Positions 14,320 to 24,383 of a DNA stretch of 54,818 nt are shown here, piece by piece; within the stretch, counting starts at the first letter, position 1, and each line of letters begins with the position of its first letter. The notes under the pieces are model-generated. The model worked only from the letters and a program-made list of their open reading frames with translations, did not search any database and was not told the origin of the DNA. The translations under genes and the position numbers were made by a program. The stretch is from Alphaproteobacteria bacterium (GTDB lineage Bacteria; Pseudomonadota; Alphaproteobacteria; GCA-2731375), in NCBI GenBank assembly GCA_016869175.1, contig VGEV01000006.1, positions 1-54,818 on the forward strand, given 5' to 3'.

Positions 14320-14369
14320 AGGTTGTCCGAGGTCGTGCCAGCTGCACGTCAGTGCCTCGGGGGGGCAGG

Positions 14370-18014
<3,645 letters not shown>

Positions 18015-18172: not shown

Positions 18173-18202
18173 CGGCCCGGCGCTTGGCGCCGGGCCGTTT
18201 TT
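18173..18202 (+). terminator. Strong rho-independent terminator after nrdJ
   Basis: A perfect 11-bp GC stem (18173-18183 with 18187-18197), a three-base loop and a run of five T at 18198-18202. It is the best intrinsic terminator in the window and ends the nrdJ transcript about 160 bases after the stop codon, before the FeeM/cNMP gene. Confidence 0.92.
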
Positions 18203-18291
18203 CGTTGCTCCGAAGCCCGCGCGGCCGCGCCGTTAACCGCGGTTTCAGGGCTGCCATGCGAAGTTCGTCGCCAAACCGACGGAGGCAGCGC

Positions 18292-19467
18292 ATGGATGGT
18301 TCGGCCGCCGGCGAGCGGGTGCGCCAGCGGGTGGTGCTGGCGACGACGGACGCCGACCGGCGGCGGGTTGAGCGCTTTCGCCTGGCGGCGTTGCGACGCG
18401 AACGCGGCCTCGCCGCGGGCGCCAACCTGCCGGCCGGCATCGACCGGCTGGAATCGCTGGCCGCCCAAGCCGAGCACTACTTTATCGAGCAGGACGGCGA
18501 GATCCGCGCGACACTCTGGCAAGTGGGAGCGGCCGCGCCCGACCGGCTGCCGGAAAGCCTGCGCCAAGCATTCATGCTGGCACGCTTCGCCGAGTACGGC
18601 CATGCGCTGTCGGTAACGGGCCCGCCGGTTGTCGCTCCCGACTGGCCGGGTGGGGAAGCGGCCGCGCTGCTTCTGGCGGCGGCGTTCAAGACCACCCGCC
18701 AGCTTCGCCGCGAGATCGATTTCACCCATTGCGAGCTCGCCAATACCGGGCTCTATCAGCAGCTCGGCTACCGCCGCTACGCGCCGCATTTCTACGACGC
18801 CGACCAGCGTGTGCGCACGCCGCTCTTGATGCTGCTGAAGGATTTCGGCCACCTGCGCGCGGTCAATTCCCCCTTTACCCGCCTGGCGGCCGCGTTGCCC
18901 AACGATCGCACCGCCGCCAACTGGTTCGCCCGTCATTTTCCCGAGGCGCCAGCCATCGACACCAAGCAGCTGCGCGACGAGGAGCGCTTCTGGCGCTTCT
19001 TGACCAAGCGTCTGCAGCAGACCCCGCTCACCTCCATTCCGCTGTTCCGGGGCTTGAGCTACGCCGATGCCTTGCGCTTCCTGCACCAGGCCAAGCTGTT
19101 GGCGCTGGAGCCGGGCGACCTGCTGGTGCGCGCGGGCAGCACGGGACACGAGATGTATGTGGTGCTGGCCGGCCGGCTTCATGTCGAGGCCGAATATTCC
19201 GGCCACCGACGCCGCCTGGCCTCGATCGGCCCTGGCGGCCTGGCCGGCGAGATCGGCTTCCTGGCCGAGACCCCGCGCTCGGCCGACCTGGTGGCGGGCG
19301 AGACCAGCGAGGTGCTGGTACTGACCCAGGCGGCGGTACGCCGGGCGATGGAGGAGATCCCGAAGATCGCCGCCAATGTGCTGCTGCACCTCTCGCTCAT
19401 CCTGTGCGAGCGGCTGCGCCACAGTACGCGGGATCTGCTCGACGCCAGGCCGACGGACCCCGCCTGA
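18292..19467 (+). CDS. FeeM-like N-acyltransferase (GNAT fold) fused to a cyclic-nucleotide-binding domain
   Basis: A 391-residue two-domain protein. Residues 1-215 resemble the FeeM/N-acyl amino acid synthase branch of the GNAT superfamily: an early VERFRLAALRRERGL segment, IRATLWQV, and the late ELANTGLYQQLGYRRYAP with FYDADQRVRTPLLMLL. Residues 255-385 are a cyclic-nucleotide-binding domain with the phosphate-binding cassette LAGEIGFLAETPRSADLV, including the Glu and Arg that contact cAMP or cGMP. There is no DNA-binding helix-turn-helix after it. Acyltransferase activity under control of cAMP/cGMP is the natural inference; the substrate is unknown. The ATG at 18292 has GGAGG seven bases upstream. 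Confidence 0.72.
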   Translation: MDGSAAGERVRQRVVLATTDADRRRVERFRLAALRRERGLAAGANLPAGIDRLESLAAQAEHYFIEQDGEIRATLWQVGAAAPDRLPESLRQAFMLARFAEYGHALSVTGPPVVAPDWPGGEAAALLLAAAFKTTRQLRREIDFTHCELANTGLYQQLGYRRYAPHFYDADQRVRTPLLMLLKDFGHLRAVNSPFTRLAAALPNDRTAANWFARHFPEAPAIDTKQLRDEERFWRFLTKRLQQTPLTSIPLFRGLSYADALRFLHQAKLLALEPGDLLVRAGSTGHEMYVVLAGRLHVEAEYSGHRRRLASIGPGGLAGEIGFLAETPRSADLVAGETSEVLVLTQAAVRRAMEEIPKIAANVLLHLSLILCERLRHSTRDLLDARPTDPA

Positions 19468-19470
19468 CCG

Positions 19471-20628
19471 CTATTTGGTTCCGCCGTTGACCGCCAGCAG
19501 CTCGATCCGGCCCTTCCTCGCCGTCAGCGCCAGCCGGCCGGAGAGCAGGGCCAGCGCCGCATCGCCGAATACCTCGCGCCGCCAGCCCGACAGCGCTGGC
19601 AGGTCGGCCCTGGGGTCGCTGGCGATGCGCGCCAAGTCCTCGCTGCTGGCCACCAGCTTGGCCGCCACGCCATGTTCATTGCATTGCTGCTTCAGCAACA
19701 CTTTCAACAGTTCCAGGGCCGGTCCCGCGTTGATCTGCGGCTCCTCGGCGAGCACCGGCAATGCCGCTTCCGGCAGCTCCAGGCCGCGGCGGATGGCGTT
19801 CAGCAGGCCCTCGCCCATGGCGTTGTCGGCGAACGACTTGGGCACCGCGCGCAGGGCTCTCAGACCGTCCGCGCCGGTCGGCCGCTCGGCCGCCAGTTCC
19901 AGCACGGCCTCGTCGCGCAGGACGTGTCCGCGCGGCAAGTCGCGGCGCTGCGCTTCCAGTTCGCGCCAGGCGGCAACTTCCTTCAGGACGCCCAGGTATC
20001 GGGGATTGCGGCCGCGCGGCTTGAGCCGCCTCCAGGCCTGTTCCGGCACCAAGGCATAGGTACCAGGATCGGCCAGGATCGCCATCTCCTCGTTCAGCCA
20101 ATGCGCCCGGCCGCTGTCCTTCAGCCGCTGCTCCAGCACCTTGTAGACCTCCGCCAGATGGCGCACATCGGCAAGCGCGTAGTCGAGCTGGCGCGGCGAC
20201 AACGGCCGGCGGGCCCAGTCGGTGAATTGCGCCGACTTGTCGAGCCGCCGCCCGGTCAACCGCTGCACCAGCATCTCGAAACCGATCTGCTCGCCCAGGC
20301 CGCAGACCATCGCCGCCACCTGCGTATCGAACAGCGGCCCCGGCACCAGGCCGGTGGCGTGAAAGAAAATCTCCAGGTCCTGTCGGGCGGCATGAAATAC
20401 CTTCAGCACATCGGGTGCCGCCATCAGGTCGTGCAATGGGCTGAGCTCGATGCCCTCGGCCAGCGGGTCGATTGCCCAGACCTGGCCCTCGGCCGCGACC
20501 TGCACCAGGCACAATTTCGACCAATAGCTGCGGTCGCGCATGAACTCGGTATCGACAATGATCGCTGGCTGCCTGGCGAGCCGCTGGCAGAGCTCGGCCA
20601 GGGCATCGGTGTTGCGAACAATGCTCAT
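19471..20628 (-). CDS. rnd: Ribonuclease D
   Basis: A 385-residue 3'-5' exoribonuclease that trims tRNA and other stable RNA precursors. The DEDDy exonuclease domain is intact: [14 protein letters not shown] (about residues 20-33), the Asp of [14 protein letters not shown] (about 84-97), and the Tyr/Asp of [15 protein letters not shown] (about 150-164). An HRDC domain follows (about 205-290). The start ATG at 20628 was chosen where homology begins; no good ribosome site is seen. The gene is divergent from aspS and its stop lies three bases from the stop of the convergent FeeM/cNMP gene. Confidence 0.94.
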
Positions 20629-20785
20629 CGCGGAGGTGTTTCTTGCAATCGGTCTCGGGCGGCGGGGATGCGCCGGGCCGCACCATAGGCGGGCTGGCTT
20701 GACAACGCGAGCTTTCCTATGCGCTGTTCCCGCCGTTTTGCGGCCGGCCGGCTGCCGTCCGTCCAAGACCATGGTTTCCCGCCGC

Positions 20786-22567
20786 ATGCACCGCTATCGC
20801 ACCCATACTTGCAGCCAACTGCGCCGCGACCATGTCGGCCAGCAGGTCCGCTTGTCGGGCTGGGTCCACCGCAAGCGCGACCACGGCGGGCTGGTGTTCA
20901 TCGACTTGCGCGACCATTACGGCACAACGCAATGTGTGGTGGAACCCGACGCGGCCTGCTTCGCCGCGGTCGGAGAGGCGCGCGCCGAATGGGTGGTCCG
21001 AGTGGACGGGCGGGTCGTGGCGCGCAGCCCGGAGACCGTGAACGCCAGCCTCGCCACGGGCGAGGTCGAGCTGCGGATTGATGCCTGCGAAGTGCTGTCG
21101 AGCGCCGACGAGTTGCCGCTACAGGTGTTCGGCGAGCAGCAATATCCCGAGGACATCCGGCTGCGCTACCGTTTCCTGGATCTCAGGCGCGAGCGCCCGC
21201 ACGCCAATATCGTGCTGCGTTCGCGCGTCATCTCCAGCATCCGCCGACGCATGGAGGCGCAAGGCTTCCTGGAGTTCCAAACCCCCATCCTGACCGCCTC
21301 CAGCCCCGAAGGCGCACGCGACTTCCTGGTGCCGAGCCGGCTCCATCCCGGCCATTTCTATGCCCTGCCGCAAGCGCCGCAGCAGTTCAAGCAACTGTGC
21401 ATGGTGGCAGGCTTCGATCGCTACTTCCAGATCGCGCCCTGCTTCCGCGACGAGGATGCGCGTGCCGATCGCAGCCCGGGCGAGTTCTACCAGCTCGACA
21501 TCGAGATGTCGTTCGTCGAGCAGGAAGACGTGTTCTCGGCCGTCGAGCCGGTCATGCACGGCGTGTTCACCGAGTTCACCCATCGCCAGGTCACCGCACC
21601 GCCGTTCCCGCGTATCGCCTACCGCGATGCGCTGCTGCAATACGGGACCGACAAGCCAGACCTGCGGATCCCGCTGCTCATCGTCGATGTCAGCGAGGTG
21701 TTTGCCGGCTCCGAGTTCCAACTCTTCGCCAAGGCAGTGGCGGCGGGCGATGTGGTCCGGGCGATCCCAGCTCCCGGATCGGCCGACCGGCCGCGCAGCT
21801 TCTTCGACCGCATGAACGACTGGGCACGCAGCGAGGGGGCGCCGGGCTTGGGCTGGCTCGCCTTTGCCGAGGGCGGCGCCAAGGGCCCGATCGGACAGCG
21901 GCTGGATCCCGGCCGGCTCGCCCGGCTGAAGCAGTTGACGGGCCTTGGCGACGGCGACGGCCTGTTCTTCGCCAGCGGGCCGGCGGACAAGGCGGCCCTG
22001 CTTGCCGGCAAGGCGCGCGTGCGGCTCGGCCAGGAACTCAGCCTGGTCGAGAAAGACAGCTACCGGTTTTGCTGGATCGTCGATTTTCCCATGTACGAGT
22101 GGAACGAGGACGAGAAGCGGGTCGATTTCAGCCATAACCCGTTCTCCATGCCGCAAGGCGGTCTTGCGGCGCTGAACGGCAAGCAGCCGCTGGACATCCT
22201 CGCCTACCAGTATGACATCGTCTGCAATGGCATCGAGCTGTCCTCGGGCGCCATCCGCAACCACCGCCCCGACATTATGTTGCGGGCCTTTGAAATCGCC
22301 GGCTACGACCGCGACGAGGTGGAACGTCGGTTTGGCGGCATGCTGCATGCCTTGCGCCATGGCGCCCCCCCCCATGGCGGCACCGCGCCAGGCATCGACC
22401 GCATCGTCATGCTGCTTGCCGATGAGCCGAATATCCGCGAGGTCATCCTGTTCCCGATGAACCAGCAGGCGCAGGACCTGATGATGGGGGCGCCTTCGGA
22501 GGTCTCGCCCAAGCAGTTGCGCGAACTGCATATCCGCCTCGCCCTGCCGGACGGCCCCAAGACCTAG
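20786..22567 (+). CDS. aspS: Aspartyl-tRNA synthetase
   Basis: A 593-residue class II synthetase that charges tRNA-Asp. An anticodon-binding OB domain (residues 1-110, [20 protein letters not shown]) is followed by the catalytic core: [13 protein letters not shown], the motif 2 loop [20 protein letters not shown] (about residues 219-238), the bacterial insertion domain (about 280-410), and the motif 3 region [20 protein letters not shown] near 530-550. I chose the ATG at 20786 (MHRYRTHTC, the usual opening); the in-frame ATG at 20771 would add five residues. A run of nine C at 22365-22373 lies in the coding sequence and preserves the frame (HGAPPHGG). Confidence 0.96.
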
Positions 22568-22676: not shown

Positions 22677-24383
22677 ATGGCCAACCTTTCGACCATCGAG
22701 CCTGCGACCGAGGGCGCTCCGGCCGCCGCGCTGAAGCTGGAACGCGACCGCTTCGTCGCGTTCTCGTTCGCGGCCGCCGACCTGCTGATGGAGGTCGACG
22801 AAGCGGGCAAGGTGCGCTACGTCATGGGTGCCGCCAAGGGCCTGACCGGGCTCGATGCCAAGGCGCTGATCGGCACCGCGTTCAGTGAGATCGTGGCCGC
22901 CGGCGATCGCGGCTTGGCGCAACGGCTCGTCGGCGAGCTGAAACCTGGCAGTCGTCTGCTGCCGACCGGAATCAACTTGGCGGCGAGTCGAGGCATGGCA
23001 ATCCTGGGCGGTTGCCGCCTGCCGGCGGGCGACGGCCGGCGCTATGTCACCTTGAGTATTGCGCGTCTGCCCTTCGCCGCCGCGGCCCAGTCCGCCAAGC
23101 GCGACCCGGCGACCGGACTGGTGGCCGGCGAGGACTTCGCCACGCTGGTCGGCGACTGCATGGCGGCCGGGCGCGAGGCCGGCCAGGAACTCAAGCTGAC
23201 ACTGCTGGATCTGCCGGGCTTGGCGGAACTGAAGCAGCGCTCCGGCGATGCGGTCTACAGCCGCTTCCTGAGCGACGTCGGCGGTCTGTTGCGCTCGCGC
23301 TCGCTCGGCGGCGAAGCAGCTTCGGCTTTGGCCGACGGCAAGTTCGGCATCGTGCATGACGGCACGCTGTCGGCGGTCAGCCTCGGCAAGGAGGTGGAAG
23401 GCCTGAGTCAACGGGCCGACCCGACCGGCCAGGGCGTTTCCGCCACGGCGGCCGACCTCGCGCTCGATGCCGGCACGGCCTCGGCCGAGGACGCCAACAA
23501 GGCGCTGGCCTATGCCTTGCGCCAGTTCACCGAGGACGGCAGCGGCAGCTTCAGCGTCAACAGCTTGGGCCAGGCGCTGCGCGGGGTGATGGACGAGACG
23601 GTCAAGCGCATCGCCAAGTTCAAAGATACATTGGACCGCCGCCGGTTCGACCTCGCCTTCCAGCCGATCGTCTCGCTGTTCGACGGCCAATTGCACCATT
23701 ACGAAGTGCTGAGCCGGTTCGAGGAGCGCGACAAGACCGCCAGCATGATCGCTTTCGCCGAGGAAGTGGACGTCATCCAAGACTTCGACTTGGCCGTTTG
23801 CCAGCGTTCGGTCGAATTCCTGCTGAAGCGCGAAGAGGCTGGCGCGCCGGTCTCGCTGGCCGGCAACCTGTCCGGCAAGTCACTGATGAACCAGCTCTTC
23901 ATGGCGGCGCTTCGGCAGCTCTCCGCAGCCCTGGGCCGCCACCGTCGGCAGCTGCTATTCGAGGTGACGGAATCGAGCAAGATCGCCAACCTGGAAGCCG
24001 CGCGGAACGTTGTCGAGCAGTTGAAGGCCGACGGCCACCATGTGTGCTTGGACGATTTCGGCGCCGGCTCGGCTTCGTTCCCGTACCTGCAGGCGCTGCC
24101 GATCAACTATGTCAAGATCGACGGCGCCTATGTCCGGCAGGCGCAGAACTCGAGCTGCGACCAGGCGATCCTCAAAGCTATCGCCCAGCTTTGCACCGAC
24201 CTGAAGATCGGCACCATCGCCGAGATGGTCGAGACCACCGAGCAGCACAAGTTGCTGCGCGGGCTGGGGGTGGGCTATGGCCAGGGCTGGCTGTTCGGAC
24301 GACCGCAGACCGGCTTGCCGATGCCCGCGCCGGATCCGGCAAGCGCCGGGCCGCTGGCGCCAAAGGTTCGCCGCACCGAGTAG
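22677..24383 (+). CDS. EAL-domain protein with PAS-like and degenerate GGDEF regions
   Basis: A 568-residue soluble signalling protein. Residues 15-140 look like a PAS fold (FVAFSFAAADLLMEVDE ... KGLTGLDAKALIG). Residues 145-245 have GGDEF-like layout, but the active-site motif is lost (ALADGKFGIV where GGDEF is expected), so diguanylate cyclase activity is unlikely. Residues 310-550 are an EAL domain: the name motif is EVL (HHYEVLSRF), followed by GNLSGKSL, LFEVTES, CLDDFGAGSASF, YVKIDG, IAEMVETTEQ and GYGQGWLFGRP. Most metal and catalytic residues remain, so cyclic-di-GMP hydrolysis or binding are both possible. It stands alone, convergent with ppx. Confidence 0.85.
   Translation: MANLSTIEPATEGAPAAALKLERDRFVAFSFAAADLLMEVDEAGKVRYVMGAAKGLTGLDAKALIGTAFSEIVAAGDRGLAQRLVGELKPGSRLLPTGINLAASRGMAILGGCRLPAGDGRRYVTLSIARLPFAAAAQSAKRDPATGLVAGEDFATLVGDCMAAGREAGQELKLTLLDLPGLAELKQRSGDAVYSRFLSDVGGLLRSRSLGGEAASALADGKFGIVHDGTLSAVSLGKEVEGLSQRADPTGQGVSATAADLALDAGTASAEDANKALAYALRQFTEDGSGSFSVNSLGQALRGVMDETVKRIAKFKDTLDRRRFDLAFQPIVSLFDGQLHHYEVLSRFEERDKTASMIAFAEEVDVIQDFDLAVCQRSVEFLLKREEAGAPVSLAGNLSGKSLMNQLFMAALRQLSAALGRHRRQLLFEVTESSKIANLEAARNVVEQLKADGHHVCLDDFGAGSASFPYLQALPINYVKIDGAYVRQAQNSSCDQAILKAIAQLCTDLKIGTIAEMVETTEQHKLLRGLGVGYGQGWLFGRPQTGLPMPAPDPASAGPLAPKVRRTE

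Follow-up and report, generated by a model that had tools for sequence, protein, structure and literature searches.

A conserved alphaproteobacterial family joining a FeeM-like GNAT domain to a cyclic-nucleotide-binding domain, with an apparently altered acyltransferase domain in one copy

Can a cyclic nucleotide gate an acyltransferase of the FeeM type within a single polypeptide, and is such an enzyme likely to be active in every copy? This question is raised by a gene on the plus strand (18292–19467) of the window, the whole stretch of 54,818 nucleotides analysed here. A first-pass annotation had proposed a FeeM-like acyltransferase joined to a cyclic-nucleotide sensor that might produce N-acyl amino acids. 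The open reading frame is intact from the ATG at 18292 to the TGA at 19467 and is a real gene encoding 391 amino acids; a Shine-Dalgarno-like GGAGG (18281–18285, +) is seen in the sequence six bases 5' of the ATG. The window protein consists of a FeeM/LuxI-like GNAT domain (residues 12–190; 18325–18861, +), assigned from PF13444/PF21926 matches of homologues, an hhalign comparison and the fold of the homologue L020 against 2G0B, followed by a linker of 54 residues (191–244; 18862–19023, +) delimited by the alignment of homologues, and a cyclic-nucleotide-binding (CNB) domain with flanking helices (residues 245–378; 19024–19425, +), delimited by Pfam and PDB sequence matches.

The C-terminal half forms a clear CNB sensor domain whose conserved positions appear intact. 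It matches Pfam cNMP_binding (PF00027) over residues 272–354 with an E value of 6.3e-16 and 58.6 bits against a curated cut-off of 27.5, and it contains the phosphate-binding cassette GEIGFLAETPRSA (residues 319–331; 19246–19284, +), in which Gly319-Glu320 and Arg329 are present. In known cyclic-nucleotide receptors the cassette Glu and Arg are ligand-contacting residues. Of the 22 other aligned homologues, 21 retain both and one (L057) has neither, and the good cassette with Glu and Arg noted in the first-pass annotation is thus borne out. In a comparison of the full protein with PDB sequences, all stretches listed for the best 60 of 146 matches (E≤1) fell within residues 238–389, and the C-terminal part alone gave 44 matches at E≤1e-5. 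The best PDB sequence matches of the CNB domain were cGMP-dependent kinases, CRP-type regulators (4ev0, E 1.2e-10) and PKA regulatory subunits; cyclic-nucleotide-gated channels and, in the full-protein search, the mycobacterial acetyltransferase Pat were also among the matches listed. Neither Pfam nor NCBIfam found a DNA-binding domain or HTH in the window protein, in which 37 residues are left after the CNB match; its absence from these scans rules out a CRP-type regulator, as had been stated before. The window protein is predicted to bind cAMP or cGMP. In the genome (G000), class III cyclase domains are matched at 18 places, of which two belong to one frame, giving 17–18 domains, so that cAMP or cGMP is likely made by this organism. 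Several of these domains lie in open frames of 700–1,169 codons; for a genome of 4 Mb, this is a rich endowment for cyclic-nucleotide signalling.

In the case of the N-terminal domain, single-sequence scans of the window protein against Pfam (E≤10) and NCBIfam gave no match, including none to PF21926 and PF00765. When ten family proteins, the window protein among them, were scanned against Pfam at E≤10, PF13444 was matched by seven, PF21926 (FeeM) by two and PF00765 by one. The PF21926 cut-off was passed by four of the nine family proteins with scores listed (L020, L036, L050 and L057), and that of PF00765 (AHL synthase, 24 bits) was not reached, the best member seen being L020 with 13.4 bits (E 0.059). 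Alignment by hhalign of 23 family N-domains with a FeeM-family profile, built from 14 of the 25 PF21926 proteins found, gave a probability of 98.9 and an E value of 2.9e-17 over 177 columns, against 0.2 for a reversed control. Searched against PDB sequences, the N-domain profile matched the GNAT SACOL1063 (E 3.1e-6) and the AHL synthase TofI (E 1.6e-4). The AlphaFold model of the full window protein was poor (pLDDT 57, pTM 0.38), and fold comparison was made with the N-domain of the closest relative found, L020 (42–43% identity to the window protein), for which a middling model was obtained (pLDDT 60.6, pTM 0.60; residues 134–194 mostly below 50). The best 50 Foldseek rows for this model carry acetyltransferase or GNAT-family titles in all but two cases (4e0a and 1z4e), and FeeM was absent from these 50. 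Direct superposition of the model on FeeM (2G0B) by VIA-align gave a Z of 12.3 (3.3 Å, 150 residues); 2G0B ranked third, after two bacterial GNATs that scored within 1 Z of it, and TofI reached a Z of 11.6. By homology, and not from the window's own letters, the assignment as a FeeM/LuxI-like GNAT domain seems sound. The homologue Pfam matches, the hhalign probability and the fit of the L020 model to 2G0B, taken with the PF00027 match, confirm the gene as encoding a predicted FeeM-like/CNB fusion, and the GNAT resemblance expected of the N-terminal half was found, with the L020 model and not the window protein as query.

Of the 14 other genomes of the order that were searched, 13 contain homologues of residues 1–241, and all nine homologues that were aligned at full length carry the same two domains, which indicates that the fusion is not due to chance. 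The linker motif NSPF..WF..FPE..LRDE..FW..LT is kept across the order and partly outside it. A sample of 385 genomes of the class, searched at E≤1e-20, yielded 27 genomes with matches, 25 of them with both domains and two (G118 and G125) with CNB-only matches; counted among the 25 is G286, whose CNB domain lies slightly under the Pfam cut-off, and in G325 both domains are present but split by a stop. A single-sequence scan of genome contigs found nothing, and an alignment query found 11 loci. A search of a sample of 398 genomes from the phylum gave matches in 17 at E≤1e-30, a cut-off that would miss weaker matches such as L083; among the rows listed, no full-length FeeM-CNB match beyond the window was found, whether within the class or outside it, and the 11 loci and six further rows were CNB only (about residues 232–389). 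The family tree has mixed support, with 9 of its 27 inner branches open. No paper on an alphaproteobacterial FeeM-CNB fusion family was found by title or by the start of the abstract. Several members have unusual arrangements. L057 (G286:C109) carries a fused response-regulator receiver domain ahead of its FeeM domain, and its CNB domain is degenerate. Two FeeM-CNB genes lie in tandem on the same strand in L040/L058 (G208:C6:1703-4120). Copies broken by a frame change or stop occur in three draft genomes (L015/L030, L018 and L053/L060) and represent either assembly errors or decaying genes.

The gene upstream in the window (14352–18014, +) is nrdJ, encoding a vitamin B12-dependent ribonucleotide reductase (NF005736, 2117 bits against 1737), and it is a conserved neighbour: of the 14 loci from the order, 13 have nrdJ next to the FeeM-CNB gene, and the remaining one (L019) begins at a contig end. 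Outside the window's family it is adjacent in 7 of 20 two-domain genomes of the class (G324, G043, G173, G242, G139, G106 and G325), as scored within flanks of at most 1.5 kb, some of the 13 genomes without nrdJ having short flanks. The seven nrdJ-linked genomes span four families, and in five of their loci (L037, L039, L041, L042 and L046) aspS is convergent on the other side. When 18 chosen loci were compared, aspS was matched in 16 loci with 67–81% identity. On the tree the nrdJ-linkage label clusters: it needs 4 changes, where shuffled labels average 10.1 (30 rows). This agrees with an ancient locus passed on vertically. The rnd-aspS block of the window (19471–22567) is inverted relative to L020 and L022–L030, where aspS adjoins the FeeM-CNB gene and rnd lies farther out.

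Between nrdJ and the FeeM-CNB gene an intrinsic-terminator-like hairpin (18173–18197, +; fold z −4.6) was detected, suggesting that the two genes are transcribed separately, so that the linkage need not mean a common function; an operon with nrdJ is not favoured with so strong a terminator-like hairpin intervening. A consensus terminator scan of the same stretch found 2 sites against 1.3 (sd 1.3) expected by chance, and no sigma-70-like promoter was found between the two genes. Biosynthetic neighbours were not seen, the conserved neighbours being nrdJ, aspS and rnd, and an RNA family scan of the window revealed one tRNA only. Further downstream, the window encodes an EAL-domain protein (22677–24383; PF00563, E 5e-56) in which Pfam finds no other domain; NCBIfam matches below cut-off, starting at residue 138, may point to a degenerate second domain that precedes the EAL domain.

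Glu95 is the proposed catalytic residue of FeeM, and changing the equivalent Glu103 of Nas354 to Ala abolished the phenotype, according to PMC4897644. The position was located in the family by two agreeing alignments, MAFFT and hhalign, in which the Glu of L061 is equated with FeeM Glu95 by its motif. In the fused proteins it is occupied by F, L, I, T, V, M or Y in 23 of 23 and by Glu or Asp in none; in the window protein, Val108 (18613–18615, +) lies opposite the presumed catalytic Glu. Among the 14 aligned PF21926 proteins, as counted by eye, ten have Glu or Asp at this position and four are non-acidic. These alignments indicate that the catalytic base of FeeM is missing from the family. Inactivity need not follow, because removal of the Glu base of mycobacterial Pat, as described in PMC8556138, did no more than lower its activity.

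The window copy departs further from its relatives. Each of the 23 proteins was compared in turn with the remaining 22 (leave-one-out), a column counting as conserved when 20 or more of these keep it; the window protein breaks five of 12 conserved N-domain columns (Y31L, V35R, D57A, R77Q and P149L), whereas other members break 0–3 of 11–12; it breaks one of 15 conserved CNB columns. Ala57 (18460–18462, +) replaces an Asp found in all 22 other aligned homologues, and Trp76-Gln77 (18517–18522, +) stands opposite an Arg found in 21 of 22, the choice between Trp76 and Gln77 being set by alignment gap placement. This Asp and Arg are presumably akin to the Asp/Arg cluster of AHL synthases. The invariant Arg of the first helix (Arg30) is kept. 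Among 21 rows, the longest end branch belongs to the window protein both for the N-domain (1.81, median 0.39) and for the CNB domain (0.90, median 0.45). The ratio of N- to C-terminal branch is 2.0 for the window and 1.8–2.1 for L044, L046 and L049 (L054 and L057 having been excluded before this count), and relaxed constraint unique to the window N-domain was therefore rejected. Given the five broken columns in 12 against one in 15, and the longest N-domain branch, the acyltransferase domain of the window copy is unusually altered and the conserved sensor positions are not. For this copy, as judged from its residues, reduced or lost catalysis would be about as likely as activity.

The reading that we prefer, with a probability of roughly 60%, is that of a two-domain protein with a cyclic-nucleotide-gated GNAT domain as described above and with doubtful catalysis in the window copy; for the family, a cyclic-nucleotide-gated acyltransferase is the best reading. 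It builds on computed results for the domain pair, the cassette and the residues lost, on the fold as modelled for a homologue, and on the conserved gene neighbourhood and the cyclase genes of the genome. The predicted sequence of events would begin with cAMP (or cGMP) binding to the C-terminal cassette, which would most likely shift the cassette, hinge and C-helix. By analogy with cAMP in Pat and, reportedly, in NasP, this movement would most likely pass through the linker, and the GNAT domain would be released or reshaped. In the family, this domain probably acts as an N-acyltransferase that depends on acyl-ACP or acyl-CoA, and its donor would probably be acyl-ACP, as in FeeM and LuxI. In the window copy the sensor would be intact and the acyltransferase domain would lack residues that are otherwise conserved, making catalysis doubtful, and any chemistry of this protein, like its gating, is a prediction.

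It is possible, if less probable, that the GNAT-fold domain is non-catalytic here, perhaps family-wide, and acts instead as a module for binding or interaction, switched by a cyclic nucleotide. The non-acidic residue at the Glu95 position in all 23 members argues for such a module, as do the loss of Asp57, of the Arg at 76/77 and of Tyr31, Val35 and Pro149 from a protein whose CNB columns are nearly all kept, and the long N-domain branch. However, the few columns broken by other members suggest a domain under constraint, possibly for catalysis, the loss of the Glu base in Pat merely reduced activity (PMC8556138), four of the 14 aligned PF21926 proteins are likewise non-acidic, and a high branch ratio is also found in L044, L046 and L049. 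A genuine cAMP-gated synthase of the NasP/FeeM type, making N-acyl amino acids, appears unlikely: the domain pair, which NasP shares, and the relatives with a FeeM fold and PF21926 matches would agree with it, but the catalytic Glu of FeeM occurs in 0 of 23 members and the conserved neighbours nrdJ, aspS and rnd are not biosynthetic ones. The production of N-acyl amino acids suggested in the first-pass annotation is weakened by that non-acidic position and by the residues lost from the window N-domain, an active site that, as aligned, offers no support for such synthesis by the window protein. Similarly doubtful is a more specific proposal, a gated FeeM-fold family without the FeeM base that would either use a new acceptor or serve as a switch without catalysis, and would be functionally tied to its nrdJ and aspS neighbours, with the window copy as a pseudo-enzyme sensor. 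That the protein is an unrecognised CRP/FNR-type regulator, or simply joins a CNB domain to some unrelated N-domain, is very improbable: its CNB domain does match CRP-type regulators such as 4ev0, but no HTH was found by Pfam or NCBIfam, and the N-domain is a GNAT by profile and by homologue fold.

Three features are new: an alphaproteobacterial family with the FeeM-CNB fusion and a long linker, often beside nrdJ and aspS; a non-acidic residue at the FeeM Glu position in all 23 aligned members; and a window copy with five of 12 N-domain positions broken, among them the Asp that all 22 other aligned proteins retain, and an intact CNB domain. If the gated acyltransferases of our preferred reading are active, direct second-messenger control of acyl transfer would extend from the isolated cases of NasP and Pat to a chromosomal FeeM-CNB locus conserved in several families of Alphaproteobacteria, and the family, whose members naturally lack the catalytic Glu, would help in studying how FeeM/LuxI-fold enzymes work. 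If they are inactive in lineages such as that of the window, a cyclic-nucleotide receptor would have been built upon a dead acyltransferase.

Among known systems, NasP, for which PMC11631085 gives the accession ABB76600, is said to join an N-acyl amino acid synthase-type domain and a CNB domain in one chain, as does the window protein. Going by the title of the report by Clardy and Brady (2007, J Bacteriol 189:6487), NasP is reportedly proteobacterial and directly activated by cAMP. NasP is a demonstrated enzyme, whereas the alphaproteobacterial family has a non-acidic Glu95 position and often adjoins nrdJ. As a kind, such proteins are already known from NasP and from Pat, a cAMP-activated GNAT, and the view that they are little explored did not hold: a cAMP-activated N-acyl amino acid synthase, NasP, published in 2007, is cited in PMC4897644. 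FeeM (2G0B) and PF21926 resemble the family in homologue fold (Z 12.3), in profile (98.9%) and in the kept first-helix Arg; the family differs in the non-acidic residue and in its extra linker and CNB domain, and the window protein itself lies below Pfam detection. AHL synthases (TofI; PF00765) are similar in fold (Z 11.6) and give a weak sequence-profile match (E 1.6e-4), but the family has a fused CNB domain and stays under the PF00765 cut-off. Mycobacterial Pat (Rv0998, MSMEG_5458), a GNAT activated by cAMP according to PMC8556138, also carries a CNB and a GNAT domain in a single chain, but in the opposite order, with the CNB first; it is a protein-lysine acetyltransferase and matches the window protein via the CNB only (residues 245–337). 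Nas343 and Nas354, described in PMC4897644, likewise have an N-acyl amino acid synthase-type domain with a C-terminal second-messenger sensor, which is PilZ (c-di-GMP) in place of CNB, and the catalytic Glu is present. The same domain order as in the window protein is found in L083 (L083:1456-2388, +), from another class of the phylum, in which FeeM (E 1e-24) and cNMP_binding (E 3e-21) are combined in a compact protein of 311 amino acids. L083 is without the long linker, much closer to FeeM and perhaps a nearer relative of NasP, and like the window family it is non-acidic at the Glu95 position.
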